Assembly: GCF_954871325.1 (NCBI RefSeq)
Contig: NC_088779.1
Location: forward strand, 29,310,623-29,374,622
DNA length: 64,000 nucleotides
Source of the DNA: Gordionus sp. m RMFG-2023
Lineage: Eukaryota > Nematomorpha > Gordioida > Chordodea > Parachordodidae
Direction: 5' to 3'
Shown: positions 21,527 through 61,006 of the stretch, in pieces
Layout of the letters: each line of letters starts with the position of its first letter
Numbering within the stretch: position 1 is the first letter of the stretch
The notes under the pieces: generated by a model
The model's database searches: none
Told to the model about the DNA's origin: nothing
What the model saw: the letters and a program-made list of their open reading frames with translations, nothing else
Program-made: the position numbers and the translations under genes

Positions 21527-21550
21527 ATGACCCTTCTAAACAATTTGAAG
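21527..21550 (+). CDS. Micro-exon 'E0', copy A, 24 nt
   Basis: Reads (D)DPSKQFE(G) in phase 1. Donor is GTGATA. The acceptor position is TG here but AG in copy B (47378-47379). The reading frame is open, and differences from B within the exon are few. Confidence 0.4.
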
Positions 21551-22759
21551 GTGATAAAATTTTCATAGATTATCGAATATATTAATGTTTATTACAATGT
21601 TCATAGTAATATTTTATTTTTGGTATCATAATAATTTATTTTTATCTAAAAATAAGTATATTTCCATAATTTTGTTGACCTAAAATATATTAAAGCAGAT
21701 TATATAGGCTTATTCATATAACACATTTTAATAATGTATTATTTCAATTATTCGCACTGATTACATTTTCTATTAACTATTCATATTTACGAATTATTCA
21801 AATTATTCGAATAATCCCTCATTCATTTAGAATTCGAATTGGTGGCAAATATATAAAACACTTTTATTTTTGTATTCTAGGCTGAGAATTTACTCTAAAT
21901 ACAAATTAGGGGCTATCCTGAATTTACATTTAGAACGAATTAGCAGCAAGATACACAAAAATATGCTGTATTATGGACTATTTTGATATACTGCTTTGCG
22001 AATTTGCGATATTATATAAAAATAAATGTATTGTAAAATAATTTCCACGAATATATATTGTCAGAATTTTTGATTGCACCTATTTTAATTAGAAAAATTA
22101 TGTTATAATTTATTGGATGAGAAAAATTAACCTGCGATCAAATTATTAACGAAATTAAAATGATTTTTATTTAATTTAATATGTCAAGAAAATTTTTTAA
22201 GGAGGAGTTTCACTTACCCTTCATTAAGGACATAAAAATGTTATAACTTAAAAAAATATATTTAACAAGCAGTTTATATACCATTTTCAATAGAATCATT
22301 TGTCACATTAAAAAGTTACCAATGGACAATATAAATATTATGTAACACTTTTGGAATAATTTTATAAAATATTACAATTATTCAAACAATTCTATTCAAA
22401 TATTTAAATTATTTAAATAAATCTTCGATTTTAATTTATTCAAATATTTTGCTCCAACTATTTCAATAACTTGATTCACTTAAAATAACATATTCAAATT
22501 TATTTGCTAAATTTTTAAATAATTCGAATAAAATAAATTGAAAAATTAGTTTTATTCGAATCAAAAAATGTTTATTAATATTTAAACAAAATTAAAAATT
22601 TAATATTCGCATTCTTCTCTATTTGATTCTATTGGAAATTTTTGGAATATATTCGCCCGTATGAGTAAACTTACCTTATAAATTTGGACAATTTTAGCCA
22701 TAAAATCATTTTATTTTGCAATTTATATAAAAAATCTTAAAAATAAATTAGTATTATAG

Positions 22760-22813
22760 TTTTAAAATGTTATGGTAAAATTAGTACACTGCGTTTGCTG
22801 GAATATATTTCTG
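22760..22813 (+). CDS. Micro-exon 'E1', copy A, 54 nt
   Basis: Sits between TATTATAG and GTGAAG. Phase 1 reading: LKCYGKISTLRLLEYIS. Copies B and C keep the LLEYIS end followed by GTAAAA donors, but B is deleted at its start and C has lost one base. Confidence 0.5.
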
Positions 22814-22932
22814 GTGAAGTAGGATGTTTTAAAAGTTTTAACTCTCTTTCAATAAAAGATTATAATTTGAAATTCTTTCACTTTGATAAGACATTCATTA
22901 AAATTTTAATGTTTTTTTAACAAATTATAAAG

Positions 22933-22989
22933 GTTTTTCTGATGAAGATCAAAATACACATGAGGAGACAAGGAATTCTACAACACCTA
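22933..22989 (+). CDS. Micro-exon 'E2', copy A, 57 nt
   Basis: Sits between TATAAAG and GTAAAT. Phase 1 reading: FSDEDQNTHEETRNSTTP. The copies in B and C are 60 nt, so the length difference is exactly one codon. The EDQ and the Thr-rich end are shared. Confidence 0.55.
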
Positions 22990-23313
22990 GTAAATAGATA
23001 TAGAACATGTACCAGATTGAATTTTGTTATATATTATATAATGATAGTGAATCTATTGTTTTTTAACTTCAATTTCCTTTTTCAAATATAAATTTTGACT
23101 AGAAATGTATTACTTATGTTTAAATTTTCTACTCTATAAATTTAAGACAATTTGGATGCTAAATATTGTACCAATTATGTTGTATATATTTGTTTATGGT
23201 ATGTTTATTTATTTAAGAAGAAAAAAGTTAATATACGAAATTACCACATTACAACAATAAATATAATATTAGATATACGGCTATAAAGGAACATATATAA
23301 ATTATATATATAG

Positions 23314-23343
23314 GTTTACCAATAAAAAGGCTAAAATTTTCAG
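23314..23343 (+). CDS. Micro-exon 'E4', copy A, 30 nt
   Basis: Sits between ATATATAG and GTTAAT. Phase 1 reading: LPIKRLKFS. Length is identical in all three copies (IPIKKLGFS in B and C). Confidence 0.55.
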
Positions 23344-23695
23344 GTTAATTTTATTTGACTTTAATTTTATAAAACTAACTCACTATAGATAACTTTTATT
23401 AATGCTAATCTCTAGTAAAAAGTTTAGATTTTCACATGGTCCTCTAAACTTCAAATAAAATTGAAGATTTAAAAATCTGTACATAGATCTTCTCCTGTGG
23501 AATATTTTCAATAAGAATATTTTTATTTCTTGAATGATCAAGTAGTTTGTTACCTTTATCAATCATTATATTTAAAAAAATTATTTAATTCCATATGAGA
23601 ATATCTATAAATAATGTTTATGATTGAAATATCTTTAAAATAAATCCTTCTAATAATAGTATAAATAAATAAATGTAAAATTTTTATTTAAATAG

Positions 23696-23754
23696 TTGTC
23701 AAAAATCAATCAGAAGGAGAGATGAATGCTGAAAATGAAAATATGGTACCATAA
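23696..23754 (+). CDS. Terminal exon, copy A
   Basis: Follows TTTTTATTTAAATAG. It reads VKNQSEGEMNAENENMVP and stops at TAA. Compared with copy B it carries six extra bases (two codons) and ends at the homologous stop. Strongly polar, tail-like sequence. Confidence 0.55.
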
Positions 23755-24479
23755 AACAAAAAACAATTAAAATTACTAAAAATTATTTTCTTTTATATTT
23801 TTATATTAATTAAGTTTGGCATTTGGGAATATATATTATCATTTATTCATTAATTTAACAAACATAGTGCATCATTATATTTAAAGATCTAAATACTTTG
23901 TGATTATTATTAAATTATAAAACTATTATTTTGGTCTTAATCTTATCTTTATATATTTTTTTCCCTAATTGTAAAAGGAAATTAAATAAAATTATTTTGT
24001 GATTAACTTATCAAATAATTATCACATCATAATATGAATTTCGCTTTCTTATTTATACACTGAAAGTAATGTTCCAATTTTAAGAATCGAATATTTAATT
24101 GAATAATATTTATGGCAATTAATAAATCATTCGAATATTTAAATATCATTCTTTATTAAATTCGCTCTTATCATACGAAATTAATTTCAAATAATATTAT
24201 TTTTAATCCAAATAATTACAGTAAAAATTTTAATTTTTATAAATCAAATTTATACAAGAGAACCAAACATACAACTTTTTTTATTAAAAATTTATCTATT
24301 AAATTTTGGCGAAAAAGGATAAAAAAATTTTTATAGCTTTCTTACATGCATGTCATAAGAATATTACTTAATAATAAATTAAATAGGAAAAAGATTTAAG
24401 GATAATTTAATGATATTAAGAAATATTTAAATAAATATATTTATTTTTTCTTCAAATTTCTAAAAAGAATTTTAAAAAA

Positions 24480-24800
24480 AACTCGCTTAACTTGCTATTC
24501 TAACTTGGTAAAATTATGTTTATCATAAAAACAACTTTATATATCTCAGTGACCAAGAATAATGACATTTTTGAGTTTCTGACCTGTCCAAAAAAAAGAA
24601 TATACTTTCGTTCTAATTTTCTTAGCGTTTTGGAAAATTTCATGAAAAATATTCAATTTTATTTCAATTTCATAAATTACATATATTATTCATTATCTTT
24701 ACAATATAAATTATTACATCTAAGTATCCAAAGTCATTCAAAATTATTCATTTATCTTAATATAAAAAAATAAATAATACAAATTTTTTCTGAACATTAC
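24480..24800. repeat. Conserved island shared by all three copies (with 51066-51400, 62205-62400)
   Basis: Matches around AACTTTATATATC and TTTTCTTAGCGTTTTGG. Both strands are open here in places: a minus frame 24643-24500 starts MKFSKTLRKLERK, and copy C has a similar frame, but copy B is frameshifted. A plus frame at 24516-24773 is also open. The strand, if any, that was coding cannot be decided. Confidence 0.45.
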
Positions 24801-25239
24801 TATTTAATTAATTAAGCTTTTTTATATATAGACTGGATTTTGACAAATTTTAAAAAGGCTTAAATCATTCTTAAAGCTTTTACTAAAAACGTTTGAAAAG
24901 ACATAATTTTCTCGCAAATATTAATTTCCAAAATATAATAATTTTTTTAAAAAATATTAATTTCCAAAATATTATAAAATTTTTGAAAAATATGGCCAAT
25001 CATTCTCCCTCTTCTACAAGCCTTCCCATAATTTTATCTAAGAAGTCATAGAGAGTTTGTTGTTCAAGTGGTTTATCGTTTTGGTTGTCAATGTTACATA
25101 AGTCACTAATCGTTGGTTTTTTCGTTGCACGTTTTTGTTTAAATCGTGAACTTGATATCCATTTCGAATGTTGTCCTTACAAATCGTGACTTCATATAGC
25201 TTGTAGTGCTCAGTTGTTATTATTATCATTTTTCAAATA

Positions 25240-25345
25240 TAATATTTTTAGCGTTTTAATTTTTCGCGTTTTAATGACTTTTATTTTTTCGCTTTTTAGT
25301 GTTTAATTAATTTTTGCGTTTTAGTATTTAATTTATTTTCAATCT
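25240..25345. repeat. Imperfect GCGTTTTA-type short repeats
   Basis: GCGTTTTAATTTTT, GCGTTTTAATGACTTTTATT, GCTTTTTAGTG and GCGTTTTAGTATTTAATT follow one another with irregular spacing. The adjacent minus frame 25038-25229 (63 codons) is not recognised. Confidence 0.45.
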
Positions 25346-26057
25346 CCGAGGTTAAAATATGCAAATGAAATATTATTCACATTTCCCTCTCTTTAAATAA
25401 AAAATTTAAATTTCACACCCTAGTTTTAATTCAAAAAGTGTTATTTTTAATAAAAATTCTTCATAAGATAATTTTTAGAAAATGATCTCATCACATCATT
25501 TAAATATTTATCTAAAATGAAGATGTAACATAACCACTTGTCTTCAAAAGCTTTATTTCAAAAACATTTTTATCATATTAAGTATTACTTATAAGGGTTA
25601 TTTAAATCAATCATGTGATTTAAACCTTTTAATTCATATGTTTTAATTACATTTTAATATATTTAAAATTAAAGTTTTATCTTCTTGTTTAGGATATTTA
25701 ATGGTTTATTTTTAATTATATCTAAGAATTCATCTTTAGGTTTATTTAATTTACAACAATTGATCATCATTCAAGAAATCAAAAAAATATCAATATTTCA
25801 CAAAGAAATTAAGTAAATAATTTTTTTTAAGGCTTTTTATGTGTTCAAATATATCCATTATGATTTTACATTTTAGTTATTTTAATGATGTATAACATGC
25901 CTTTATTCCGGCATAAAATCTTAATTTATAATAACTTTTTCTTACGTGGATTAGAATAATAAGTAATCATCATTGGTCTCACAATATAGAATTCATAACC
26001 TAACGTTCAACTTCCATATTGGTTCTTTCTAGGTTGTCACATTAGATTAGGTGTTGG

Positions 26058-26422
26058 TCATCATCTTGTCCACCACCCAAGCCAGGACACCATGAAGAAA
26101 GAAGCTTTTTGCATGAAAGAACGTGCTAAGGTTTGATTCTTGGTCATCTCAATAGATTAGGTAGTCATCTCAGTAGATTAGGCATTGGTCATATCAATAG
26201 ATTAGGTAGTCATCTCAATAGATTAGGCAGTCATATCAATAGGTAGTCATCTCAATAGGTTAAGCAGTCATCTCAATAGATTAGGCATTGATCATGTCAA
26301 TAGATTAGGTAGTCATCTCAATAGATTAGGCAGTCATATCAATAAATTAGGTAGTCATCTCATTAAGCAGTCATCATTCTAGTCCACCACCCAGAGCCAG
26401 GGCACCATGAAAAGAAAGAAGG
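26058..26422 (+). repeat. Minisatellite flanked by direct repeats
   Basis: About 26142-26370 is an irregular array of a 20-24 bp unit (AATAGATTAGGCAGTCATCT and variants with TAGGTAGTCAT or TAGGCATTGGTCAT). It is bracketed by two copies of a 45-50 bp sequence in the same orientation: CATCATCTTGTCCACCACCC and CATCATTCTAGTCCACCACC, each continuing to a CACCATGA(A)...AGAAAGAAG end (26059-26105 and 26372-26420). Confidence 0.88.
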
Positions 26423-26714
26423 AAAGGATAAACGTGCGAGTAAGTAAAAATATCTTTTATTATTATTAACTACTTTTTCTTTTTTACACATAGTATATAT
26501 ATTTGATTAAACAAAAAAAAACAAAAAGTAAGGTTATGAAAAATAAAAAGTAATATAAGTTGAATTTGAATTCATAACAAAAAAAAAATATTATTTGAAT
26601 AAATATAATGAATGTACGTTATATAAATTAAAATATATTACTATTCAATAACCAATATTTTAATTTATTAATTCCTATAATGTAACAACTAATATATATA
26701 AATTAAGTTCAAAA

Positions 26715-26960
26715 GTATAATAACTAAATTGTCTGAAATTTATAGGGTAGATATTGCAACATGATATAAAACTTTCTGATAAAATCTGATAAAAAACAAA
26801 TTAAAGTTAAAAAAATAACAAATTGCTGATAAAACATTGACGCTAAAATATTTATTATTGATTGTACCCCAATCACACTCCCCAATTAGACATATGTCGG
26901 TCAGCATTATAAGAAGTTTCTAATATCCTAAATATTTTTTTAAGAAATATATTTTTCAAT
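26715..26960 (+). repeat. Long repeated unit, copy A, 3' part (matches 52135-52390)
   Basis: Shared anchors: TGTCTGAAATT(T/C)ATAGGGTAG and AGCATTATAAGAAGTTTCTA. This extends copy A beyond the terminal exon, so the duplicated unit is longer than the gene inside it. Confidence 0.7.
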
Positions 26961-27034
26961 ATTTATGTGTATGATGACGGGTGTGATCTAATATACACCA
27001 AGGTACTTATATTATCATTTCATTGGTCAATTTG

Positions 27035-27205
27035 GTAATGACGTTGGCCACGAGGTCGAAGCTGCTTGGAGCTGCAGATGTGCTGGTTGATTGGTGGCGT
27101 TTTGATGATAGCTGGAGAACCTTGTGAAACGAATCCTGTTCCAGATACATCAGGCATAACGGTGTATTTATAAGCGGGTTATCCCTATTCGTTGGTGGTT
27201 TTCAT
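27035..27205 (-). other. GC-richer, coding-like island of unknown origin
   Basis: Clearly richer in G and C than its surroundings. The minus strand has an open stretch including MPDVSGTGFVSQGSPAII and TPPINQHICSSKQLRP. Not recognised. Possible sources are a recent insertion or a host exon; it has no counterpart at the matching place in copy B (after 52390). Confidence 0.3.
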
Positions 27206-29440
27206 GCAAATCATGGACCTTAATAAAAAATTTTAATTTAAAATCAGCCCACCCCCCTCCTTCCCATATTAAATAATTAAATATATCTTTAGTTTATGTA
27301 TGCAGACTTTCTCATCCAATACCTTTTAATCAGCCTAAATACGTTTAAATAATAGTCATAGATTAATATGCATACAAATACGTGTGGCTTGCCCACTTAA
27401 GTGTAGATGCCTCCTTATAGAGATTGCAAATTTATTTGCATCCAGTTTGATATAAATAAGAATATCTAGCTTAGTTTTATTGCATAGATCAAGGAGCATA
27501 AGCTTATATCACGTATCATATAAAATTCATTAAGTGAGATGTCATTTAAAGACCTAGAAAAGTTAAATTAATATAATTCTCAATTTTAGATATTTAAAAA
27601 CCATCCACACTATTTGATGTGTAGATAAATGATATATAAATTGTATTAAGGAATCCGCAAATCTCCACCTTAGATTAAATTATAAACTCTAAGTAAGAAA
27701 TAGAAATAATTGCCAATAGAAAATCTTAAATAAATTAGAGATTAAGTAAAATTAATTTATGCACTCATTTCTTCCTATTCTGAAAACACAAAACTCTTCA
27801 AATATAAACTCATTATAAATTTTTAAATAAAATAGACTTTTTATATATTTAAGAAAAACCTAATTATTAGTTTTAGAAAACTATCTTACATACCGTGAAC
27901 CAGCAAATTATTTATAAAAGTTGGTTCAAAACAGTAGATCATTTTTCAAATATTGAATGTTAACTCAGAAAACATATTAATTCCCCCAAATCTGAATTTG
28001 ACATTATGTCAATCCAGCTAATATTATGAAACAGAAATTAACAACCGAGTAACAACAGTTGAAATCTAATAAATCGTTTAGTGTAGATGTAATATTTCCT
28101 AAATTTATTTATGAGATATTATTTTTATATAAATGGCTGCTAAACTTTTTAGCAAAACATTCATAACAGATTTCTTTAGTCAAATAACGCTCTTTCATGG
28201 AGGTTTCCTTATAGATAGGTCAACATGCATAATAGGAGTCAGATCTTACAAAAAGAGTTATTTAACCACCTCACACTTTCCTTAGGATTTATTGTCAAAT
28301 AGAAAGCTTTACTCAGTTGTAAGAAATAAAAAATTTACCATTAATCAATTGAAACTACGTCTAGTCTAACATGGTATTATTGCGGCAATTTTATTTATTA
28401 TTTTAAATAAATTTATTTTTATTATAAAAAATTAATAAAAACTATTTTGTTCTAGACTATATATATTATATATATATATACACGTATATATGTTCACATT
28501 GAATTTCTCATGAAAAACAATAATTTCATAATTAATACGCATTTTTTTTTACTTATCAGAATATATCAATGAATATCCCTTAGTATATCGCACTTTATTT
28601 ACAACATGTGAATAGAGTTTTTCAGACATATAAGTGGGGCTGGATTGATCAACTTCTTATTTGACAAAAATAAAGTGGCAACGGTTTTTACTACAAATGA
28701 TGAAGTGCTTTTTCTGAATATCTAGGTAAATTATGTAGGAATTTATTAATTACAAATAAAAATATCGGCCAATAAGCTTTCTTAGATCTAATCCTTTTTC
28801 AATAATTTTTGTCATTGGAGTCGTTTTAAATCACCTAATTTTTCTCTAAATTATAAAACAGCTTACTCTTAGTCTCAAAATTTTGTCAAGCGATAGCTAA
28901 GTTAAAAAAATAATAAGATTATTATTAAATTTAAAAAAAAGGAAAATTTAACATTAAAATTTGTTAATTTTAAATGTTAAAAGTCTATTATTATATCTCC
29001 TTAATAATAATACTTCATTTGTGTTTAATAAAATATAAAAATTTTTTATATCAAATATTGGGAGAAAAATCTTATGCCGAAAAATATTTAATTTATACTT
29101 TTATTGCTATTAAAATTATATTAAAGTATGAATTGCGCTATGGCTTATATACTATTTTAGATATTTGTTTAGATAATATTCATTTGATAAATATAATTTT
29201 ATGATGCCTCCTTCTTACCAGGTATCAGATGTGAATATGATGTTGGTAGAGCGAAATTATTCTCATTTATTATAATTACTCTGAAATTATCAAAACATGG
29301 GTTAATGAGTAGCTGAAATATCTCTCGATCTAACTTGGTACTAACTAGGACATGTCCAAAATCAGGCACTAAGCCCTTATCCTATTTAAGATAGAATAAA
29401 GAATTATTTCTGCTAAGATTATCTTGCACCGAAGGTATTC
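27206..29440. other. AT-rich sequence, nothing recognised
   Basis: No motif, terminal repeat or gene family was seen. A TA-rich run lies near 28457-28481. The plus frame at 28974-29204 (76 codons) is low-complexity and unsupported. Confidence 0.5.
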
Positions 29441-29509
29441 GAGGATTATTCAGGTTTTTACTATCTAATCGTTTCTCTATAATCGGTTCTTTTAATCATC
29501 AATAACCAT

Positions 29510-30230: not shown

Positions 30231-30264
30231 CTCTTTATGTGTTTATATTTTTGGACCTCAGCAC

Positions 30265-30337
30265 GCCGCTTAGGCCTAAAGCGGCCCATCACGCATTTTA
30301 GAATAATTTTATGACCTGGTCTGTAACTGACCAGGTC
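30265..30337. repeat. Two perfect short hairpins
   Basis: 30265-30285: GCCGCTT, AGGCCTA, AAGCGGC. 30313-30337: GACCTGGTC, 7-base loop, GACCAGGTC. Both are much richer in GC than the surroundings. They may be ends of unidentified mobile elements. Confidence 0.65.
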
Positions 30338-31141: not shown

Positions 31142-31934
31142 GTTTTACCTGATTCGTATTAGATATATGCTATATCATACAGATTTTAACCAATATATTT
31201 TTAAATAATAATATATAAATTTATACAAGTTTAAGCCTATGGCTTGATATAGTGCTAAATTATAGATTATGGAATTTTCATTTGTAATAATAAAGAGAAT
31301 ATTCTTATTAAAACATGTTCGCAAGTTATTTCTAAAACTTTGGCAATATATTATATTAATTATTGATTGTTTTCTGGTGGGGTCATCCTTCGTGAAAATA
31401 TTTGTAGATAACCTTAAATAAATTTATATTATAGTTTATACTAATAAATGAAAAAATGAACTTTAAACAAATAAGAATTCAAACAAACATAAGTTCAAAG
31501 GTGAACTAAATTATAATTTAACAAACATATTAAATCCATCTTATTTAATACTTAAAACTATATAAAATAATTTATTTTCAAATTGTATAAAATATTTTTA
31601 TTCCAAATTTAAAATTTATTTATTTGATTGGTCAGTATAATGTTAAGGAGTTTAAGCAGTCAGAGAAATAGTGTAATTTCCCAATTGATATTTGCCAATA
31701 TTTAAGAGTTTGGTATTTTTGTTGAAATATCATATGTTCAATCATTTTTTATAACAATTTATTTCAAGGTAAAGTTAAATTTTTTGCTAAAGTAGAATTA
31801 AAATGGCGTAATATTATTCATCTTAAATTTGACCCCTTTTATCCACAAATTCTAAATTCTTTGAATTTTTAAAAGTCTGGATAGAATCAGTTATTTTAAT
31901 AAATCAATCGATCTCGCTGGTATGACTTAAAAAA

Positions 31935-32042: not shown

Positions 32043-32879
32043 GTTTTACCTGATTCGTATTAAATGTATGCTATATCCTACAGATTTTGACCAATTTTTA
32101 AACAATAATATATAAGTTAGTACAAGTTTAAACCTATGGCTGATATAGTGCTAAATTATAGATTATGGAATTTTCATTTATAATATAAATAATAATCAGA
32201 ATATTCTTATTAAAACATGTTCGCCAGATATTTCTAAAACTTTGGATATTATATTATTTATTGTTTGTTTTCTGGTATGGTCATCCTTCGTGAAAATATT
32301 TGTAAATAACCATAAATAAATTTATATTATAGCTTATACTAATAAATGAAAAAATGAACTTTAAACAAATAAGAATTCAAATAAACTTAGGTTTAAAGGT
32401 GAACTAAATTATTATTTAACAAACATATTATACCCATCTTATTTAATACTTAAAACTATATAAAATAATTTATTTTCCAATTGTATAAAATTTATTTTTT
32501 TCAAATTTAAAATTTCCAAAGTTGATATGTTAAATTACCATTTAATTATTATGCTAATATCTATTCTTGGATCTTCATTCTACACTATTAATGGAATTAG
32601 ATTTAAAGATAATAGTATATTAATACTAATTAATTTCCCGTTATTAGCTACAATATTTTATATTTAGGCAAAATTTTTTTTATATCTACAACAGTTTTTT
32701 AAATGAACCTTTACTACAACTATTTTCCCATTTTACTTTTTAGTCTGGTTTTTTTTTAAATATTCATGTTTTTTACATATTAAGTAAATTTTTATATTTA
32801 GCTAAAAATTTTATTCTCTTTCTATTTAATTTATTTTTTGCGTTAGCTATTTTCTTATTTCCCCATTACTTTTTCCCCT

Positions 32880-33770: not shown

Positions 33771-34665
33771 TCATTTCAAAATATTCCGTTTTAGAAATTA
33801 TATCGGCAGAAAGATTCTCATATTCAATCGTTTTGATTAAATTATATATTGTCATTTTTAGATTTCGATAATTTTTCTTTTATTGTTAATGATTATATTT
33901 TTGAAGTTAAAAATATAAATAAATTTAAAATCAATAATAGTAAGCTGATATGAAATAAATATGGTTATTACATATATTTGCAATAACATCAAAACATTTC
34001 AAAATCAAAATATTTATTAATTATATATATAGGGTATCTTTGCGCAGGTAATTTTAATAAAAAAAAATATTAATTGCATCATTATCTATAGTAAAAAATA
34101 ATAATTTTGGTATATAAAATATATATTCAGTATATGGGTATTATTTTAGCTACCCGAAGCATTCTGACTACCCGAACCTCAGAAGAAAATTTTTATTACT
34201 AACCAAACCCGACCCGATTAAAATGATTTTAGAATTTGAGTTTTAATAATATAAAATTTAAGGAAAAATTAAAAATTATAATAAGTATTCACATATTGTC
34301 ACCTTTTAATAGTTTACCTAACCTCTATAAAAGGAAATAGTTTATTTGGGAAATGAAAATTACGTAAATGATTGTGACAATGTGCAAGATTAAAAATAAA
34401 ATGTTATTCTTTCACTGAAATAAAATGCTTATAGAGCTTATTTCTAATATTTTTATTTTGGGGCGAGCAATCTCTTAGAGATCGACCATGCCCTGAGATA
34501 AAAGTCTCAATGTCAGAGCCTCACTATGTAACACTAAAGAAAACGTTTATACCCTAGAAATTTTCAAAATCTCTTCATCATTATAATATCTTTCAAATAT
34601 TGAATTTTTTATAATATTTATTTATTTTGAAAAAAAAATTGTTTCTTTGAAATAACGGTTTGATT

Positions 34666-34881
34666 TAGTGTTGTAAAACGGTTCCATTTAAGCCAATTTT
34701 TAAAAACGGCTAACTCAATATTTTTGCCAGGAAAATATTGCCTAAACTTCGAAAATTTGTTAATAGATGTACAAACATTTGGGCTATTCTATGACTAAAA
34801 TCTTTAGACTTGCGTAATATTTTAATAATGAGTTAACCCTTTTTTAAAAATCGGCTCAAATCGAACCGTTTAACCACACTA
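34666..34881. mobile_element. Complete MITE of the TAGTGTTG family (216 bp)
   Basis: Ends TAGTGTTGTAAAACGGTTC and GAACCGTTTAACCACACTA. Flanks are GTTTGATT (34658-34665) and GTTTTATT (34882-34889), 7 of 8 matching. This is the same insertion as 17840-18038 in copy A. Confidence 0.85.
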
Positions 34882-35286
34882 GTTTTATTAAAATTTTAGA
34901 TATGAACTAATTATTTTTATAATAATGTCAGAAAGTAACGTTTATTAGGTTTAGGATGATAAGATTTTATATTTTATTAATTATAGAAATTAATAAATTA
35001 TTCCATTTTAAAAAAAATATATAAAAAGCAACTGAGATCTATAGTGACTCCGGCGAAGATTGCAGTACTTATACAAATAAATTTATATGAAAAAAAATAA
35101 AATTGAAATGGTTTCCTATAATTATGATTAATAAATAATATTAATTATAAATGGAAATAATATCTTATTTTTTTAAATATTTTTTTATATAATAACATTT
35201 TATTAAAATAGTATAATTAATAAATTGCATTTCTTTAAAAGAATTAGGTTGAAATAGTTTTATAAAATATTTTTTCATATTTTTAG

Positions 35287-35352: not shown

Positions 35353-36419
35353 GTAATGGAATAGTTCTATAAACGGTCATAGGCTCCTAGATCAGCCAGG
35401 CTTTTTTAAATTTTATATTTTAGAACAATTTTTCCTTTAAAAAAAACAGTTTTTATTACATTCTATTAAAAAATCGCTTTATACATTTGTTGTGTAAAAT
35501 AAATATGCATTCAAATAACCTACTATATATATAATTATTTAGCCCTTAAAATTATTTACAAAAAAAATAGAACTTACAAGTCTTAAAGAATTTATTAACA
35601 AAACTAAGAAAAATAATTTCTGGCCAGGTTATAAGCTGTAATAAAAAAATTATTATTTAATTTTGTATAGAAATAGGCATGTTTAACACTTGTAGCTAAT
35701 ATATCTATTTAGAAAAATAAATAAGAGGTAAATAGTGGTGTCCTATAATATAATAAAATATAAATATTAATTAAACTATTATTAAATCAAGAAATATTAA
35801 TTTTACTTTCTCATACACATATTTTATATTGTTATTTCATGTTAATAATAAATTCTTAAAATAAGATACTAAATCAAATTATTAACTTCCAAGAAAATTG
35901 GGTCTAGCCTAAAACTATAAGCCTTGTTTTAATTTTATAAATTTTGATATTAAATATATTTATCCTTTTCTTGACAAAAACGTGTTCTTGGCCAGTTATC
36001 TTTCTTGCTTAAATATTGAAAAAGTAAAAATGTTAAAAGTTTTAAAGGTAAATATTTACTTACACTTGAGCATTAAAGATATCTATTTTAAGTTTAAACC
36101 CTTTATTACATAACTACTAATCAGTCACAGAGTGTATTTTTTAACCTTTCTTAAATTTATTTTATTTGGCACTAAAATTACATTTGTGTCTATATAGCAT
36201 TCGTTCATATAAAAAACATTTATTATTATATTTATTTCAATTCTTGAGAGTATTATATTCGAATTTCAATAAATAACTAATGTCTTAAAATATGATTTAC
36301 TCTAATAATTTTTATCTCATTATATATTTTAGGGGGTGGCGGCTATAATAGTTAGTTATAAATTTTTTCATACAATTATATAATAGACGAGGAAAATAAA
36401 AATCAGAGGATAAAATAAT

Positions 36420-41423: not shown

Positions 41424-41431
41424 TCTATAGA

Positions 41432-45760: not shown

Positions 45761-46139
45761 ATCACAAAATATTGTTATTGTGTCGCTCAGGTGCAAGTTT
45801 CCCAATATCAAGCAAATCAAACATTTGTAATAAATTATCTTTGTTTAATATTATTTCATTATTTTCATTACATTATAGAGACTTTTTTCAGTGAGTCATG
45901 CAGTTCTCTAATATATTACAATATACTAATAAATTAAGCAAAACCCTCTTTTAAAGTTATTAAAAATTTGTATAGAAGGGTTAATTCATTGAAATATTTT
46001 ATTAAAAGTAACAAAATTGATTCTTTTACATTTGTTAACTATATTTAAATTTAAATTTTATCAAAACGGTAAAAAAATAAACAATAATATAAACAATTCA
46101 ATTTATATACAAAAACGAAATTGAAACTTTAATTGCCTT

Positions 46140-47379: not shown

Positions 47380-47403
47380 ATGCCCCTTCTAAGCAATTTG
47401 ACG
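47380..47403 (+). CDS. Micro-exon 'E0', copy B, 24 nt
   Basis: Lies between CATAATAG and GTGATT. Reads (D)APSKQFD(G). Acceptor and donor are both intact here, which guided the A reading. Confidence 0.45.
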
Positions 47404-48320: not shown

Positions 48321-48380
48321 ATTTTTTTAATGAAGATCAAGAAACACTTTTGGTGAAAAATAGGACTTCTACAACACCAG
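48321..48380 (+). CDS. Micro-exon 'E2', copy B, 60 nt
   Basis: Lies between AATTATAAAG and GTAAAATAAA. Reads FFNEDQETLLVKNRTSTTP in phase 1 with no stop. Confidence 0.55.
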
Positions 48381-48735: not shown

Positions 48736-48765
48736 GCATCCCAATAAAAAAGCTAGGATTTTCAG
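48736..48765 (+). CDS. Micro-exon 'E4', copy B, 30 nt
   Basis: Lies between ATATATACAG and GTAAAT. Reads IPIKKLGFS in phase 1. Both splice sites match copy C exactly. Confidence 0.58.
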
Positions 48766-51060: not shown

Positions 51061-51065
51061 AATAA

Positions 51066-51400: not shown

Positions 51401-51409
51401 ATTATTATA

Positions 51410-52640: not shown

Positions 52641-52780
52641 CTTATTCACATCGCTTATAAATGTCTAAACCTTTGTGCAACCCATGTAAAAAATTTAGAC
52701 ATACGTAATATTTTTCTGAATAAGGTATTGAGTTGACCGTTGTTAAAAATCGGCTCTAATAGGGCCGCTTAACAACACTA
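52640..52780. mobile_element. Right half of a TAGTGTTG MITE
   Basis: Ends in GGGCCGCTTAACAACACTA and carries TATTGAGTTGACCGTTGTT and the inner ACGTAATATTTTTCTG of the complete copies. The left end is not found upstream. Confidence 0.7.
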
Positions 52781-55155
52781 TAAAATGGAATTATGTAAAA
52801 GGAAATTGACACCTTTGTTTCATTTTAATAAGATTATGAAAAATTTTTATAACAAAATTGGGATGGTGACTTTACAGGTTTAAATTTATGATTATGTAGG
52901 TTGGCAAAATTGGGAGAATATTTTTTCTTACCGCAAACATTTTATCCTCAATACTTGTAAATTATTGAAATCGTCAAATTTGATAGAATTATTTATTGTT
53001 CCTTATCTACGGCCAGTTGCATAATGTATTTTAAGAAATCATACAAACTCTCAAATAATGATTAATTTAAAAATAACTCAAATTGTATTAAAGTACTACA
53101 GGTTTCATCAGGTGGCCCTAGCCTTGCTCAATATAACATCGAAAATAAAATTTTGTCCTTTCTCCCTAAAAAAACTAAAGAATAAAGGAGCAAAATGTCT
53201 GGCAGTTTAAATTGGAAAGAACGTCTAAAATCATAATATATTTAAATCTTTATAAAAAAATTATATAATAATGTTTAATCATGATTTATTTATTGTAAAG
53301 TACTTTATATTACGGAAAAATGTAGATAAAAATATTTACCAATCAAAATAATGATAAAATGTATTTTAGAAAAATATTGCCTTCAGGAACTAGATAAATT
53401 TAAAAATATTTAATTATATATTCTGTCTAAGGAGTAAGAATTTCTTAGGTTCAATTTTTTTGGCGAACTAAATTTTTTTAAAAGCAAAAATGATAGACGG
53501 AAACTATTTTTTGATGAAAGTGGCATTTAGGGAGAATATGAAGATGCTGAGTATTTTTATTTTTTTAATCCCTACTACTGTAAGGAGGTTACTGTTTATA
53601 TTAGGTTGGAATAATGATATGCATATGCAATCCATAATTGGAGATTTTTCCTTAGCCCAAAGGATAGTAATTGAACCATAATAGGTTAATAAATTATCGG
53701 ATTCTAGAATATTAGGAATACGAGTCTTTATTGATCTAATAATTGCGATGATGACAACCTTGTATTATATTTAATTCATTTGATTAATAGGTTTAATAGT
53801 TGGCAGCTAGTCTTTAGCCTATGGTCACTATTGGTTGTTCGTTGGTTAGAGATGCCTAGGTTCTCTTGGCTTTCAAGTCATTGATGATCGCCAATCTTAT
53901 CATCATTTTGAAAGAGATGAAATGGAAGATAAATTAAATTAATTTTTATATTAAGAGTGAAAATATGTTTTAATGTTATCTTACCACATTGCAAGGGCTA
54001 GTTCTAATAAATTACTGTTTAGGAGGAATAAAGCTTGATATTAATGATTTGTTTCTTAAGTAGGAAGACAGGAAAAAAATAGGAGAGGCTAAGAGGTGAC
54101 AATCTATATCCCCCTTCCATTTTACAGGTAATTGAGCTAATTTTGAGTTAGAAGTGGATCAATTAAAGTTTAAAAATTATTTTTGCAGCATAATAGGAAA
54201 TTGATTTAATATAAATCACTTTTTATTTAATTTACAAAATATTTCTTAATCATTTTTAGATCATGTTTAAATTACCAGTATTAATGTTTTATTTTTATTT
54301 AATGCATAAGATTATAATTAAAAAAAAGATTAGTGAAATAAATAAAAATTAATTTTATAATAATTTTAAACTGTTATTCACAATAATATAAAATTTATCA
54401 TTTTATGATAAATAATTATTTTGTGCATTATTAATTTATTGATATATAGTGTTGTTCGAATACCTAACATTAACCGAACCTAAAATTATGATTCTTTTTG
54501 GAAAAAAATTGGCTAAGCTAAAATAGGTTTAGCCTATGTTAGAGTTTTATGCATGGTATAAAAGGTTACCAATCCCCAAATTGGTCTTTTAATAAAATAT
54601 ATTTTTAGCTTAAGCAATGTGAATTTCAAATAGGAGTCGAATAAATTGGTCACCTTTTAAAATGTATATCTTTTATACTATGCCTAAAATCTCTAATTGT
54701 AAAATCATTATAATAATAATGTTAATTATGGTTGATTAGCTATAGCCAAATATTAGTTAAAAACCTAATTAGATTTAGGAGAGATTTATCAATAGATTTA
54801 GGCTTTATCCTATTTATTATGGAACTAGATATTGTCCATTAAATCTCTTTCAGTTTTGATATTATGAGATGAACATTAAATTTGGCTCCTACAATTTGAA
54901 TTGTTTTTATTCAGCCAATTTTTATGGCTTAAATTAGTAATTTAAATGTTATATAGCATAAATTGTTGTGTAAGAGAGAATGGGTATCCATTATATTATT
55001 AATAGTGAAAATTTTATTTATAAAAACATTTTTGATATAATTGAATAATAATTTTTTTAAAAATATTTCAGGGGACGTGAAGATTGTTGATGAATGGAAT
55101 GTATGTAAAATCTTTGGGTTAAATAAAAAAAATTAAGTAAATAAAAAGCCTAATG
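52781..55155. other. AT-rich sequence, nothing firmly recognised
   Basis: The plus frame 53490-53681 (63 codons) contains Trp, Asn and Met in a fairly balanced mix but matches no family I know. GGCTAAGCTAAAATAGGTTT near 54511 resembles the subterminal repeats of the 12.1-kb foldback element and may be a scrap of its family. Confidence 0.45.
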
Positions 55156-55160
55156 AACAT

Positions 55161-55226
55161 CGCTGGGGTGGCCTAGTGGGTTATGGTGTAAGCTTGAAAA
55201 CAGAAAGCCCAGGTTCGATCCTGGTA
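55161..55226 (+). ncRNA. tRNA-derived sequence (SINE head or relic), not a working tRNA
   Basis: Box A TGGCCTAGTGG (55169-55179) and box B GGTTCGATCC (55212-55221) of the RNA polymerase III promoter are both present at normal spacing. The T arm can pair CCAGG with CCTGG, but the loop is one base short. No acceptor stem or clear anticodon arm closes, so a functional tRNA is unlikely. It is followed by AAAAAAAAGTAAAAA and, 180 bp on, by RTE coding sequence in the same orientation. Confidence 0.65.
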
Positions 55227-55399
55227 AAAAAAAGTAAAAATTTTCCGATTTTTCTTCTATGAATGATGTGTAAAGACATAGAGTGGAATGAATTTCGGAG
55301 TTTAGAGATGACACTACGGTCACCGATAGGCTTGGACAGCCGGGTGCTAAGGGTATTTGTCCAATAAACAAAAATAAAAGACACAAATGAAAATACGAA

Positions 55400-56540
55400 T
55401 ATAAAAGCTAAGGTGTTCCCTCCAAGCGAGGCGCAGAGTGTAGACCTCCATTCTGCGAAAAGTAAAATAAAGGTCAAAGCAAAGAAGACAAGGTTAGCAA
55501 GTTTGAATATTGGTACACTTAAAGGTAAGACGATAGAATTGGCATCAATGTTGAACAAGAAAAAAGTTTACATAGCGTGCATACAAATTACTTTAATGAT
55601 TGGAGATGGGTAAAAATTTTACTATAATGGAATTGTTAGCAATAGGAACGATGTCGGCATTATCCTCAATCAAGATCTAACCTTCTCAATAGTAGAAGTC
55701 ACAGGATCTCTGATAGACCAATGAAGATAAAACTCTGCATTAGTCAATTAATACTACACATCCTTTCAGTATGTTCCACAAACGGGTTGCAAAGAAGAAG
55801 AGAAAGATGACTTTAGAGCTATCCTTGATGAAGCTGTAAAGGAAATCCCTAAGGATGACCTAGTCATAATAGGTGATGACTTAAATGCTCATGTGGGAAA
55901 AGTAAGAGATAGCTACAAAAGGCATCATGGTAATTTTGGATACTGGATACGGAGAAAGAAATGATGAAGGAGAGCATATACTAAAATTTGCGCAAGTTTT
56001 CGACTTTGCCTTAACACACCTACTATAGAAAAAAAGACAGTCATTTAATATCATATGAAAGTGGTACAAAAACACAGATAGATTACATGCTAATTTCCAG
56101 AAGATTAAAAGATGTAATTGACTGCAAAATCATATCAGGAGAAGATATTTCCACGCAACACAAGCTACTAGTCATGGATTTACACATCTTCAATAAATCC
56201 ACTCAAAATAAGATAAAACTTAAAAGATGCATCAAATGGGGTAAATTAAAAACAATGACAGATGCCTTTGCAATCAATGCAAACAATGAAACAATAGATT
56301 CCTCAAAAGTCAGTGAAAAAATGTTTACAGACCTTTCATCCAGATTAATAGAAACTACCAAATCGACACAGGGCGTGACAAGGGGAGGCTTCAAATCCTA
56401 CAAAGAACTATGGTGGTAGAATGAAGATGTGGAAACCACTATAAAGGAGAAAAAAGGTCTATAAATGTACAAATCCAAAAACCAAAATGACAAGACAAAT
56501 TATAAAAAATCCAAGAGAATAGCTACAAAATGATGGTTTT
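55400..56540 (+). pseudogene. RTE-type LINE, endonuclease part, 3'-truncated
   Basis: Scraps of the apurinic-type endonuclease in order on the plus strand: KKTRLASLNIGTLKGKTIEL (from 55477), IACIQIT, an RNDVGIIL stretch, CKEEEKDDFRAILDEAVKEI (55789-55850), DDLVIIGDDLNAHVGK (55855-55900), NFGYGERNDEGEHI, then TQIDYMLISRRLKDV (56072-56116) and the acidic/basic linker after it. GDDLNAH replaces the catalytic GDFNAH-type motif. The end (NPKTKMTRQIIKNP, near 56480-56520) is the same point at which the truncated RTE at 39.8 kb begins, so the two fragments are complementary members of one family. At least two stops and several frameshifts. Confidence 0.9.
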
Positions 56541-56739
56541 AAAATCATTTCACTTAAAAAAAATATGCTAAAAAAACTTGCGTTACGATTTCCGATTTGT
56601 GATCTGCAAGTAATAATATATAAGAATACTCATTTATTTTTATTTAAAAAATTATCTAGGTATTGGCGTCTCTTTTAGATCTAATATTTGCAAAATTGTG
56701 TGAAAGTAATATAATAGAGCATAATTGCACAACTTCAGA

Positions 56740-57080
56740 ATTTATAACAAAACATCTTACCTATAGAGAATGAAGATATTCAGGTAGTAAATATAGATAT
56801 TGAGGATCAAGAGTAATTATTAAATTAAAGTTATTTGACAAAATTGGCAAATAAACATTCAACACAAACCAATTATGATTCCAAGGGTGACTTAGAACAA
56901 GAATGTCACCTTCTTGTAAAACGACATTCACAAGATATATATATTCTAAATTTTTAGAAAAGAGAAGTGAACTTCCCAATTTTTTCACGCTCGCCAAAAA
57001 AATTCTTTGTATTAGCACGACTAGCACTCCTAGTAAAAGAGTTTTCTCTACCGCTGGATCGACGTTGATTTTAAAGAGAT
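56740..57080 (-). pseudogene. Unidentified minus-strand coding-like stretch
   Basis: 88-codon frame 57027-56761 with SVKKLGSSLLFSKN and VLSHPWNHNWFVLNVYLP, preceded by VDPAVEKTLLLG in the same frame. Balanced residue content, but no family recognised. It is probably another transposon scrap. Confidence 0.3.
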
Positions 57081-57239
57081 AATCCCCGAAAATTTAAATA
57101 AAAAAATTTTTATACATGATATTTATAAAATACGAAATCTGAATTTATAATGAGTTTTCTATTATAAAAAGATTAAAAAATATGCCGAGATATCTATAGA
57201 ATAATGTATATTTATTTTATTTTTTTTTAAAAAAAGAAA

Positions 57240-58480
57240 AAGATTAGGCAATTAAACAGCTAAAAATTAGCGCGCCGACGGCTTTAGAATAGATTTTTAA
57301 AAATTGAACCGGCCGCCTATAGTTTCATTGGCGCACATGTCTATAAATAACTATTATTAATAAATATAAATTTTGCTCAGTAGTTAGCCCGTTTTACTTT
57401 TTTGAGTGCCGAATGATTTCTTAAAAATTATTTGTTTTAGGCTAAGTTTCAAAGTAAACAATGAATCCTATCTAGAAACATTTAATATTTTCCCAAATGC
57501 CAACTTCCCGAATTTCTGGGCATTTTTTTAGAATATATTTTTAAAAGTACAATTTACTTGTTTACACAAATTTTCAACTTTTTTAAAATATTCGTGGAAT
57601 ACTAAAATTTTACTATTTAAAACACAAGTTCATTTTAACATAATTAAAAACTTTTAATTTTAAATTAAAAAATTAATTTAATTATAAGAACCGTAGATGT
57701 TATGATAAAATAGATAGTAGAGATAACCCAAAAACATGTTTTGTTATTAAACCTTGTACTTTATAATTATTTTTAAACCTTGTACTTTAAAATTATTATT
57801 ATTAAAGCTTTACTTTATAATTATTATCATTAAACCTTGTACTTTAAATTTATTATCATTAAACCTTGTACTTTAAAATAAAATATATTAATTAATTATG
57901 TTTATCTGAACCTAAAAAATTTTTCAGAGCTAGAGAGGGTTTATAACCTTATATAAATCTTAAAAAATGGCTATGTTCTGACCTACCAATATCTGGATTT
58001 ACCCGACCCTCAAATTTTATCTTCATAATCTTCCTTATCCTGCAAGTAATAATTTTAATTTGTGAAAGAAAAATAAAATAAAATTGTTCAGTGTTTAATA
58101 AAATAAAAAAATACTGCGTCGGCTTGTAAATATATTATTGCCCAATCTTTTGCAGATGATAAATTTTTTATTTCATTACCACACATCCTATTTAATCAAT
58201 TTTGTACACCAAATTAATAGCAATGCAATTAGTTTTACCTGGCCCTTATTAGATATGAGATATATGATATAGATTTTATACAATATATTTTTAAATAATA
58301 ATGTGTAAGTTAGTATTAGTTGAAGCCTTTGTCTGATATAGTCCTAAATTATAGTATTATGGAATTTTTCCTTAATATTAACTAATCGGAATATTCCTAT
58401 AACAACATGTTCGTAAGATATTTCTAAAACCGCTAATTATATTACTTATTGATATTTTTGTGGTGGGGTTATCCTTCGCA
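57240..58480 (+). repeat. Long repeated unit, copy C, 5' part
   Basis: 57360-57960 matches 29510-30060. 58200-58480 matches the 3' part of each 880-bp duplication unit (31140-31400). The intervening ATG small frame is missing. After 58480 the copy jumps to sequence matching 21780 of copy A, so about 10 kb of the unit was lost. Confidence 0.65.
57735..57885 (+). repeat. Tandem repeat, about five units of 26-30 bp
   Basis: TTAAACCTTGTACTTTA recurs, each time followed by (A)AATTATTATCAT or similar. Copy B has only one related unit (29935-29965), so the array grew in copy C. Confidence 0.85.
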
Positions 58481-58639
58481 ATTTTTTATTAACTATTCTT
58501 ATTTGATTCCAATTATTCGAATAATCCCTCATAGTTATTGATAATTGGTGGCGAATTATTCAAAATACTATTTTTATTATATTCCTCGCCCAGAATTACT
58601 CTAATTGAGAATTGGGGTCCTTAACTTTAACTTTGACTC

Positions 58640-58900
58640 ATAACACTAACCTCTAAGCCTGAAACCTATATTTATTTCTTTAAATTATACTTTTAAAATT
58701 TTTGTATATTAGCAATTCTAATATAGGCTTTTCTCATTTATTAAATTATCATATAAGTTTAAGAAATAAAACTTTTCTTAACCCTAACCCTTATTTTGCC
58801 TGTTTATTAATTAATCTTGTGGCTATACGTATAATAAATTTGAGAAAAGAAATAAATGTTAAGTTAACCTACTAGCTCTAACCCTAACCATGACCCTAAT
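58640..58900. other. Patches of CCCTAA-like words
   Basis: CTTAACCCTAACCCTTA (58779-58797) and CTCTAACCCTAACCATGACC (58874-58894) contain two or so telomere-like units each. They are too short and irregular to be an interstitial telomere. Confidence 0.3.
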
Positions 58901-59296
58901 ATGAAAAATTTAAAATTGATATTCCTGACTATTTTATTTAATATAATTATTTGGAATAAAAAAAATATCCTTTTCTGATACGGCATAATTTATTGATCCT
59001 GCCTATATATAATTTATATAAATTTAGCCATAAAATCCTTTTATATTGTAATTTATATAAAAATATCTTTAAAAAACATTACTATAAATTAAACTTAATT
59101 TGAAAAAATGTTTAAACCAAAATATTTATGGTGAAAGTAGTATTCTGTGTTGCTGGAATACATTTCTGGTAAAATAAGATGTTTTTAAAGTTTGAACTCT
59201 CCAAAAATAAAAGATTATAGAGATTGTGAATCATTTGATACGGTAAATACGTTTCATATTATTTAAATTTTAATGTTTTCTTAACCAATAATAAAG

Positions 59297-59356
59297 ATTT
59301 ATCTGGTGAAGATCAAGAAACACTCTTCGAGGGTTAAAGGATTTCTACAAAACCGA
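59297..59356 (+). pseudogene. Micro-exon 'E2', copy C, 60 nt with one stop
   Basis: Lies between AATAATAAAG and GTAAAATATA. Phase 1 reading: LSGEDQETLFEG, stop, RISTKP. Length and splice sites are conserved despite the stop. Confidence 0.5.
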
Positions 59357-59760
59357 GTAAAATATATACAATTTATATATAGAACATGGAACTCTACCAG
59401 TTTAAGGTAAGGTTTTTTTGTTATAATTAATATAATGCAATCTTATCTGTTTTTTCCGCTCATTATATTACTTTTTCAATTATAAATTTAGAATGTATTT
59501 TATGCATCTAATTTTACTAGAAATGTATTACTGAATGTTTAAGATATATACTCAATAAATTTAACACAATTTCGATGTTATAATTTATGCTATTTACATA
59601 TAATTTTATATTTTGAGTTTGTTTATTTAAGAAGAAAATGGTTAATACATCAATTTATCACCATATCCACAAGAAATAGATTTACTTTTATATAAATATT
59701 ATAAATTACTGTTCTGGGTTATATACAATCATACATAATTAATTTAATATATATATACAG

Positions 59761-59790
59761 GAATCCCAATAAAAAAGCTCGGATTTTCAG
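59761..59790 (+). pseudogene. Micro-exon 'E4', copy C, 30 nt
   Basis: Lies between ATATATACAG and GTAAAT. Reads IPIKKLGFS. Identical to copy B at all but two bases. Confidence 0.55.
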
Positions 59791-60117
59791 GTAAATATTT
59801 TATTTGAGTTTGATTTATTAAAACTTAGTCACTATAGGTAACTTTTTGTTATTGCTAATCAATAATTCTTGATTTTTACATGTTCTAGAAACTTGAAGAT
59901 TTTAAAAATAAACTGAATAAAGATTTACTCCTATGGAATATTTTCAAAAAATTTTTTTTTTTATTTCCTGGATGAACAAGTAGTGTGTTACCTTTAAGAA
60001 TTATTTTATTAAAATATAAATACTGATATAGAATTCCATATGAGTAAATCTCTGGAATTATGCCTATAAGCGTAATATCTTTAAAATAATTTTAACATCC
60101 TAATAATAGTATATCAT

Positions 60118-60890
60118 TAAAGAAAGTGAAATTAATCTTCTTGGTTCACATAAGCAGTTTTTCCACATGTGAGGTATTCATGGAAAAAATTTTCAAAGGT
60201 TTATGAGGGCTTGAAAATATTTTAATAGAAATACCTTACACCAAAGTTTTTTTCTTTTAAAAAAATATTGGTTTTTTTACTAAAGATTGTGCATAATTTT
60301 AGATCTTATTCCTTTTTTTAAATAATGAATTTATTAATCATGTTCATAAATTTTATAGAAGTATATTAGAAAATTAAAAGATTAAATTGGAAGATTTTAA
60401 CTGGGTTTCCCACAATTACCCTCGAAAATGGGTGGTTTAGATTTATATCCATTAAATATTATATCTCTTACTTCATTTGTAGCATCGCGTTTGATTAACA
60501 ACGCCAAGATATCTTCATTCATCAATCCTAAAGACCTTTAGAATTCGGCCTTGACAGCTAGAACATCTATAGCTTTACCTAAAGCTGTTTTATTTTCAAA
60601 ATTTTAACACATCAATTAATTACCTTTAATAAAAAATTTTTTTTAAATACTCTCATCAAATCCCCCTTTGGAGTATATTCAACTATTACAAAATGTTGTC
60701 TATAGTAATGCTTATGAATAGTTGAAAGCATTACCAAGTCAAAACCTAGCCTCTTATCAGATGAACAATTAAGAGTTGCCATAGGCTATCGTGGATGAAA
60801 CATAGTTCAACCACATACATGCATTAAATGTAAAACATTAGTTAATTAAATAAATTTTTCAAATTTTTAACTACTTGTAAAATTCCTTAA
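60118..60890 (+). pseudogene. Family X reverse transcriptase relic, third fragment
   Basis: Plus-strand scraps: LLGSHKQFFH (60150), SFFLLKKILVF (60250), MGGLDLYPLNIISLTSFVAS (60429-60490), QLLQNVVYSNAYE, LKALPSQNLASYQMNN (60722-60770) and VAIGYRG with QPHTCIKCKTL (60777-60840). This is the same C-terminal order as the fragments at 41.4 and 50 kb. The flanks (60083-60117 and 60886-60922) are diverged copies of the same roughly 35-bp sequence, TTTAAAATAATTTTAACATC versus CTTAAAAATAATCTTAACAT, as expected for a long target duplication. Confidence 0.75.
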
Positions 60891-60954
60891 AAATAATCTT
60901 AACATTCTAATTTTAGTATTATATAAAAGTAATTAATTATTTTTATTTAACTAG

Positions 60955-61006
60955 TTGTTAAAAATCAACCAACGGATAGAAGAATGCTGAAAATATGGCA
61001 CCATAA
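60955..61006 (+). pseudogene. Terminal exon, copy C, frameshifted
   Basis: Follows TTTTTATTTAACTAG, identical to copy B. It begins VKNQP, then a one-base deletion shifts the frame; the homologous ATGGCACCATAA is still present. Confidence 0.5.

Follow-up and report, generated by a model that had tools for sequence, protein, structure and literature searches.

Do the short blocks that recur between AG and GT in this stretch of Gordionus DNA belong to genes, and if so, what kind of protein would they encode? The window, the whole stretch of 64,000 nucleotides analyzed here, had been described in a sequence-only reading as carrying three copies (A, B, and C) of an unrecognized gene built from tiny phase-1 exons. 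Comparison with further copies supports a family of genes with tiny symmetric exons and extends it by a signal-peptide exon, to 7-9 exons and to six uninterrupted models. On these features, it is probable that the tandem family encodes small, rapidly changing secreted Gordionus proteins, which would most likely act at the interface with the host.

Three copies proved to be too few: 14 were compared in the 3′ part, and 14 DNA matches extend into the first exon, in addition to two more diverged first exons in the copies n1 and n2. All 14 matches lie at a single locus (C5:29.02-29.55 Mb; 0.53 Mb), as do all 10 protein matches of the first exon; two extra DNA matches, of which the weak one is on C2 and the other at the locus, span the upstream flank only. 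A COX1 copy on the contig that carries this locus identifies the worm as Gordionus, and the window gave no matches to Rfam or in a tRNA search. Relative to the coordinates proposed, the genes also extend further 5′, by 10.5 kb in A and 14.9 kb in B. Full models were obtained for A, B, and four copies outside the window (c3, c7, D, and E), and in all six the frame is uninterrupted (100-111 aa) and ends at the same terminal TAA, with a gene span of 8-27 kb. In each, the exon for the signal peptide spans 88-97 nt and the last exon 50-59 nt, and the internal exons between them measure 12-60 nt. Every intron is in phase 1: the internal exons (5-7 identified per gene) start at codon position 2, end at position 1, and are multiples of three. 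Exons of 6-36 nt account for 96 of 306 coding nucleotides in A, 135 of 336 in B, 132 of 336 in c3, 105 of 303 in c7, and 129 of 327 in both D and E. The features within the window are collected in Table 1.

Table 1. Exons, relics, and conserved flank of copies A, B, and C, in positions of the window
Copy	Feature	Positions	Strand	Basis or remark
A	conserved upstream flank, 5′ of exon 1	10891..10990	+	100-nt flank comparison
A	exon 1, start codon and signal peptide MLFNSHLIIILISILGFSFYSIKG..., followed by GT donor	10991..11084	+	
A	eQC, 15-nt microexon with invariant Cys codon	17157..17171	+	
A	eC, 36-nt microexon, Cys codon at end, hypervariable body	18204..18239	+	
A	eMD, 15-nt microexon	19608..19622	+	
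A	eAPS relic, acceptor AG lost	21524..21550	+	copy comparison
A	eFS, 57 nt, FSDEDQNTHEETRNSTTP	22933..22989	+	
A	ePIK, 30 nt, LPIKRLKFS	23314..23343	+	
A	last exon with TAA, VKNQSEGEMNAENENMVP	23696..23754	+	
B	exon 1, signal peptide	32527..32614	+	
B	eQC, 15-nt microexon	34033..34047	+	
B	eC, 36-nt microexon	35029..35064	+	
B	eMD, 18-nt microexon	36333..36350	+	
B	e12, 12-nt microexon, weakest exon	45879..45890	+	also in c3, n1, n2; c4 by eye
B	eAPS, 24-nt microexon	47380..47403	+	
B	eFS, 60 nt	48321..48380	+	
B	ePIK, 30 nt	48736..48765	+	
B	last exon with TAA	49129..49181	+	
C	eFS relic, 60 nt, in-frame stop	59297..59356	+	
C	ePIK block, 30 nt	59761..59790	+	
C	last-exon relic, frame shifted by 1-nt deletion	60955..61007	+	

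The sequence-only reading had itself raised the case that the conserved blocks are non-coding parts of a transposon family with no intact member. Transposons do occur in and around the copies, including a hAT element within the first intron of A, but the first-exon matches that reach the exon are restricted to the one locus, where gene units of the above length form a local array with uninterrupted members, and a transposon family is thus a most improbable source of the blocks.

Base-by-base alignment of the copies, which had been proposed together with the blocks, recovered the 57/60/60-nt and 30-nt blocks of A, B, and C at their expected places, and both are bounded by phase 1 at either side, as had been read. 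By contrast, a further block of 54 nt could not be retained, since a 3.6-kb alignment of A and B contains no 54-nt phase-1 block common to the two. The 24-nt block (eAPS) is intact in B, lacks its AG in A, and is absent from C. The last block is preceded by AG in all three copies, whereas a 1-nt deletion puts its homologous TAA out of frame in C. Copy C, which also has an in-frame stop in the 60-nt block, is broken, and A and B are the only uninterrupted copies among the three. Outside the window, c4 and c5 are incomplete (no first exon was found in either; eMD of c4 measures 16 nt and ePIK of c5 26 nt), c6 lacks both ePIK and the last exon, and n1 and n2 possess the first and last exons, their middle exons not being identified. 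Whole exons have been lost between copies, judging by comparison. Some additional candidates were not adopted: at 16708-16737 (PDLNYNESF) the frame is kept in just three of five copies, at 16901-16942 the length is constant and several frames are open, the 54 nt at 20640-20693 form an open block in no copies besides A, n1, and n2, and an exon near 18427 draws its support from B and c4 only, by eye.

The copies also share their introns at approximately 67-82% identity, and conservation by itself is therefore no proof of coding. This similarity, the broken state of C, and the incompleteness of several copies would all suit decaying or non-coding segmental duplicates, in which blocks left open by chance would mimic exons; moreover, a reading-frame scan alone yields similar group numbers of short open blocks in control phases in the 5′ half. 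Since the internal exons were chosen for their fitting phase, interval tests free of any frame filter provide the fairer evidence. In the 3′ part, AG...GT intervals of 12-150 nt with conservation across 8 or more of the 14 copies number 43, of which 37 vary in length, and four of the latter keep every length difference in threes. Two of these four are the 57-nt eFS block, which measures 54, 57, or 60 nt across the copies, and its inner acceptor; both hold in 14 of 14 copies and are open in 13 of 14, the exception being C. The other two contain the 24/27-nt block and flank, and their common frame is open in at most 42% of copies. It is eFS that stands out among the 37 intervals, and the regularity that the sequence-only reading had considered unlikely by chance is borne out. 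In the 5′ part, the unfiltered test gave 71 length-varying conserved intervals, of which four keep to threes in all copies scored, and only eQC (7 copies) and eC (5 copies) among these stay open in one common frame. Such frame-preserving length variation in both tests, together with the signal-peptide exon and the six uninterrupted models, argues against non-coding duplicates and makes this explanation unlikely.

The exons differ in the way they vary. eQC measures 12, 15, or 18 nt across eight copies and contains TGC (Cys) in all of them, and eC measures 36, 42, or 45 nt across eight copies (with the c3 and c6 acceptors assigned by eye) and ends with a Cys codon in seven. The identity of eC is 0.58, as against an intron-window mean of 0.78, and none of 461 neighbouring windows is as low; that of eQC is unremarkable (208 of 537 windows are equally low). 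The pN/pS ratio reaches 1.22 in eC and 2.29 in eQC, compared with 0.38-0.75 in e1, eAPS, eFS, and ePIK and 0.67, on few sites, in eMD. The pS of eC (0.43) exceeds intron divergence as well, so that some of the variation in this exon may stem from misalignment, gene conversion, or mutation. eMD is 15 or 18 nt in five of six aligned copies, c4 being the sixth; eAPS retains both AG and GT, at a length of 24 or 27 nt, in 11 of 14; and 11 of 12 copies have an ePIK of 30 nt bounded by conserved AG and GT.

Exon 1 (A, 94 nt; B, 88; c3, 97; c6, 49; c7, 88; D, 91; E, 88) keeps its frame across all seven copies and encodes, as judged by eye, a conserved hydrophobic leader in which a small residue (G or A) precedes the presumed signal-peptide cleavage site. 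The 100 nt upstream of exon 1 show 88% identity among seven copies, the highest of 16 flanks measured. TATA-like words occur 37-71 nt before the ATG in 7/7 copies, in a genome that is very A+T-rich, and this flank may possibly comprise a promoter and 5′ leader.

A feasible model is that a precursor of approximately 100-111 residues loses an N-terminal signal peptide, which would leave roughly 75-90 residues as the mature chain. Its first part would be encoded by eQC and eC, the identified exons after the signal peptide, so that two conserved cysteines would flank a hypervariable segment, and eAPS, eFS, ePIK, and the last exon would supply a more conserved tail. We infer from the exon structure that the genes are spliced, perhaps alternatively; because every internal exon is symmetric, exon loss, lengthening, or presumably skipping would spare the frame. 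The hypervariable segment may be closed by a disulphide and exposed outside the cell, and the most likely site for so rapidly changing a segment would be the parasite-host interface, Nematomorpha being described as parasites of arthropods. A secreted but reproductive (seminal or egg-string), antimicrobial, or structural role is somewhat unlikely. In its favour, reproductive and immune genes, too, typically form tandem arrays that encode fast-evolving small secreted proteins, and adult hairworms are free-living; the data here suit such a role and one at the host interface alike. Nothing direct speaks against it; the layout, however, fits two effector-type families, the schistosome micro-exon genes (MEGs) and the bicycle genes of aphids. 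The locus offers located, testable candidates for secreted proteins from a phylum well known for manipulating how its hosts behave, encoded by microexon genes that standard annotation easily overlooks.

Like the Gordionus genes, aphid bicycle genes have small internal exons beginning at codon position 2, a signal peptide, and fast evolution. The sequence-only reading had assigned them another phase, which is a slip of naming: the exons that Stern and Han call "phase 2" start at codon position 2 and correspond to intron phase 1 (PMC9168663). The published gene-structure classifier for bicycle genes (cut-off P 0.72; PMC9168663) accepts all six models (A, 0.961; B, 0.993; c3, 0.987; c7, 0.968; D, 0.970; E, 0.974). 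Equal phase, small exons, and these values might be taken to indicate homology with a bicycle gene or MEG, by descent or transfer. However, the D protein shares short words with five of 5.8 billion proteins, none at an E-value of up to 10, and shows no relation to MEG-family sequences within the same limit; Pfam contains no family for D or E, and the PDB returned for the E protein one chain at chance level (E-value 0.58). No C-Y-C pair was seen by eye in the models, which have two lone cysteines, and bicycle proteins are described as having a saposin-like fold (PMC13041983). Descent of bicycle genes is traced within aphids, phylloxerans, and scale insects, whereas the worm here is, by COX1, a nematomorph, with proteins of about 100 aa and 7-9 exons as compared with approximately 17 on average (minimum 5) in bicycle genes (PMC9168663). 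Homology, very improbable given a different phylum and no sequence similarity, was given up in favour of convergence of layout. The Gordionus family suggests that genes of phase-1 microexons can evolve by convergence, so that the classifier alone, which has been used to claim distant bicycle homologues, may accept unrelated genes of another phylum.

Schistosome MEGs resemble the Gordionus genes in having a signal peptide, symmetric exons of very small size between long introns, and a mature part that evolves fast, and in occurring in a parasite (PMC5825161, PMC4350168, PMC10526429). They are flatworm genes, characterized by protein variants from alternative splicing, and symmetric exons of 6-36 nt are reported to make up approximately 80% of their coding region (PMC5825161), whereas the share of such exons is 31-40% in the six Gordionus models and could be raised by further exons. 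The candidate effectors of the grape phylloxera are likewise tandemly duplicated, fast-evolving genes with signal peptides (Rispe et al., 2020; PMC7376646), but belong to an insect, and most genes of the largest cluster are reported to be intronless (PMC7376646). Microexon genes of such a kind in Nematomorpha were not among the matches listed in the open-access literature. It is conceivable, if doubtful, that hairworms evolved a microexon-built secreted arsenal against, or for steering, their arthropod hosts, as a third independent origin after MEGs and bicycle genes; the phase-1 microexon layout would then itself be adaptive, as a means of diversifying proteins quickly where they meet the host. 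A microexon layout of this effector type is known in parasites and in formers of plant galls, and in Gordionus it seemingly evolved independently.

The candidate family comprises small secreted-protein genes built of tiny symmetric exons with all introns in phase 1, in the order e1 (the first exon, encoding a putative signal peptide), eQC, eC, eMD, e12, eAPS, eFS, ePIK and the last exon. In six copies (A and B in the window; c3, c7, D and E outside it), the joined exons span 303-336 nt with 100-111 codons ahead of the stop, contain no internal stops, meet in phase 1 at every junction and end in TAA. These open models support the exon set but are not proof alone, because the exons had been picked for phase fit.

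Positions (in the window) and lengths of exons and other elements
Feature	Position	Length	Remarks
e1, copy A	10991-11084		start codon, hydrophobic leader
e1, copy B	32527-32614		start codon, hydrophobic leader
eQC		12, 15 or 18 nt	Cys codon in 8/8 copies
eC		36, 42 or 45 nt	terminal Cys codon in 7/8 copies; acceptors of c3 and c6 set by eye
eMD		15 or 18 nt	5/6 aligned copies; less sure
e12		12 nt	less sure
eAPS		24 or 27 nt	AG and GT in 11/14 copies, lengths in threes in 11/11
eFS		54, 57 or 60 nt	
ePIK		30 nt in 11/12 copies	open frame in 12/12
hAT-type transposon, copy A first intron	12231-15885		holds arrays of 115-118-nt repeats, with similar ones downstream of c7
hAT inverted arms	12231-12394 / 15722-15885		95% complementary
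hAT dimerisation ORF	14623-14913 (-)		
Tandem duplication upstream of copy B e1	31348-31628 / 32246-32526		91% identical; first unit ends short of e1
Short palindromic repeats, MITE-like	8162-8341, 13343-13567, 17840-17993, 34666-34882, 52688-52780		motif around GCCGTTT...AACAACACTA; both strands, within as well as between genes
Tandem repeat	26143-26365		units of ~21 nt, GTCATCTCAATAGATTAGGCA-like
Open frame	63024-63692	222 aa	one hydrophobic stretch, charged tail; no Pfam match

The fair tests of frame preservation are those of unfiltered AG...GT intervals. The 3' comparison covered 14 copies (n1, n2, c3-c7, A, B, C, D, E, F and G, with F and G compared in this part only; further places near C5:29.404-29.414 Mb lie outside the set) and took every interval, 12-150 nt long, that at least eight of them conserve. 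This gave 43 intervals; 37 vary in length, and in four of these all differences are in threes. One pair, formed by eFS and an acceptor within it, is open in 13 of 14 copies; the other pair holds eAPS with flank, and a common frame is open there in at most 42% of copies. The 5' part yielded 80 intervals conserved in at least five copies, 71 of them varying in length. In four, lengths differ by threes across every copy scored; of these, only eQC (seven copies) and eC (five copies) have one open frame in common throughout. The e1 interval scored 4 of 5 copies because c3 is longer by one base from the upstream AG to the ATG. A reading-frame scan of the 5' part without the length test failed to tell true from control phases. 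Indels fall in threes in 134 of 134 cases in exons versus 329 of 1613 in flanks, the exon count being partly circular because its sets hold frame-fitting copies only.

The sequence-only reading had proposed a 24-nt block, a separate 54-nt block and a last block ending in a homologous TAA in copies A, B and C. The first survives as eAPS in most copies, although A has lost its acceptor AG and C, like c5, is without the block; the 54-nt block was searched for and not found; and the last block is present, although a 1-nt deletion shifts its frame in copy C, which also has a stop within eFS. By our reading, small deletions in the last exon of c5, F and G lead into another frame past the homologous TAA, and these copies have in common a longer, different C-terminal tail that is still open. 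The frame is kept in copy A without eAPS and e12, in c7, where eMD and e12 were not found, and in D and E, where e12 was not found. Since the lost eAPS splice site is directly visible in A, loss of whole exons is one way in which these genes do change.

Similarity between units extends far upstream of the 3' blocks, and e1 is present in A, B, c3, c6, c7, D and E and at an orphan place (C5:29.2168 Mb). It was not found in the sequence compared for c4, c5 and C. In n1 and n2 both gene ends are present, e1 being more diverged, and the middle exons were not identified.

Sliding-window comparison with introns separates the exons. No intron window (0/461) is as poorly conserved as eC, and few are as poorly conserved as eMD (6/508) or e12 (27/587); eQC (208/537) and e1 (101/377) are unremarkable, and eAPS, eFS and ePIK lie somewhat above introns (59/517, 49/445 and 61/426 windows as conserved). 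In subsets of frame-fitting copies, pN/pS is 0.58 for e1, 2.29 for eQC, 1.22 for eC, 0.67 for eMD and 4.10 for e12, the last resting on 11 silent sites in all. It is 0.68 for eAPS (9/11 copies; n2 and c6 missed), 0.75 for eFS (12/14; C excluded because of its stop, n2 not caught by the search pattern) and 0.38 for ePIK (7/12; n1, n2, c5, C and G out). Diversifying selection on eC is suggested rather than demonstrated, because its pS is high as well.

Matches to the family cluster at one locus of the genome compared (287 Mb, 267 contigs), in which the window is C5:29310623-29374622. The 3' part of copy A has at least 58 matching places, from the scoring of 40 of 251 candidates; every match with E <1e-20 lies on C5 (NC_088779.1) at 29.09-29.53 Mb, and those beyond are short repeats. 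All 15 matches of the whole D protein and all 10 of its leader peptide fall at the locus. Of 16 DNA matches to e1 with its upstream flank, those that extend into the exon number 14 and lie without exception at C5:29.02-29.55 Mb; the other two cover flank only, one being a truncated second copy at the locus, within unit B, and the other a weak match on C2. Nuclear contigs C1-C5 carry many COX1 copies derived from mitochondria, some long and nearly without stops except TGA. The C5 copy (table 5) is 100% identical to Gordionus alpestris over 447 residues, 91% to a Gordius and 85% to two other hairworms, with the next match at 72% (best 120 of 8000 scored). The sequence probably comes from the ERGA pilot assembly of G. 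montsenyensis (PMC11408602).

Given the leader, the products would be secreted, and the two Cys flanking the hypervariable segment may form one disulphide loop; with symmetric exons, pieces could be gained, lost or skipped from copy to copy without harm. The favoured guess is a role at the host interface, since this is a parasite of arthropods and effectors are the family's nearest analogues; a reproductive or antimicrobial use is a less probable alternative.

Among 5.8 billion proteins, five have short words in common with the D protein, none of them scoring E up to 10; Pfam holds no family for the D or E protein, and the E protein met one PDB chain, at chance level. The layout resembles that of schistosome micro-exon genes (MEGs). 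According to the available portion of PMC5825161, however, exons of 6-36 nt make up about 80% of MEG coding sequence, versus 31-40% in the hairworm models, which on this share fail MEG membership. The layout is also like that of the aphid bicycle genes, as far as the available text of PMC9168663 describes them, and with the classifier coefficients published there the six models score P 0.961-0.993 (cut-off 0.72). Since Gordionus belongs to a different phylum, Nematomorpha, and sequence similarity was not found, this likeness is read as convergence, and such a pass outside the bicycle lineage calls for caution in claiming homology from structure alone.
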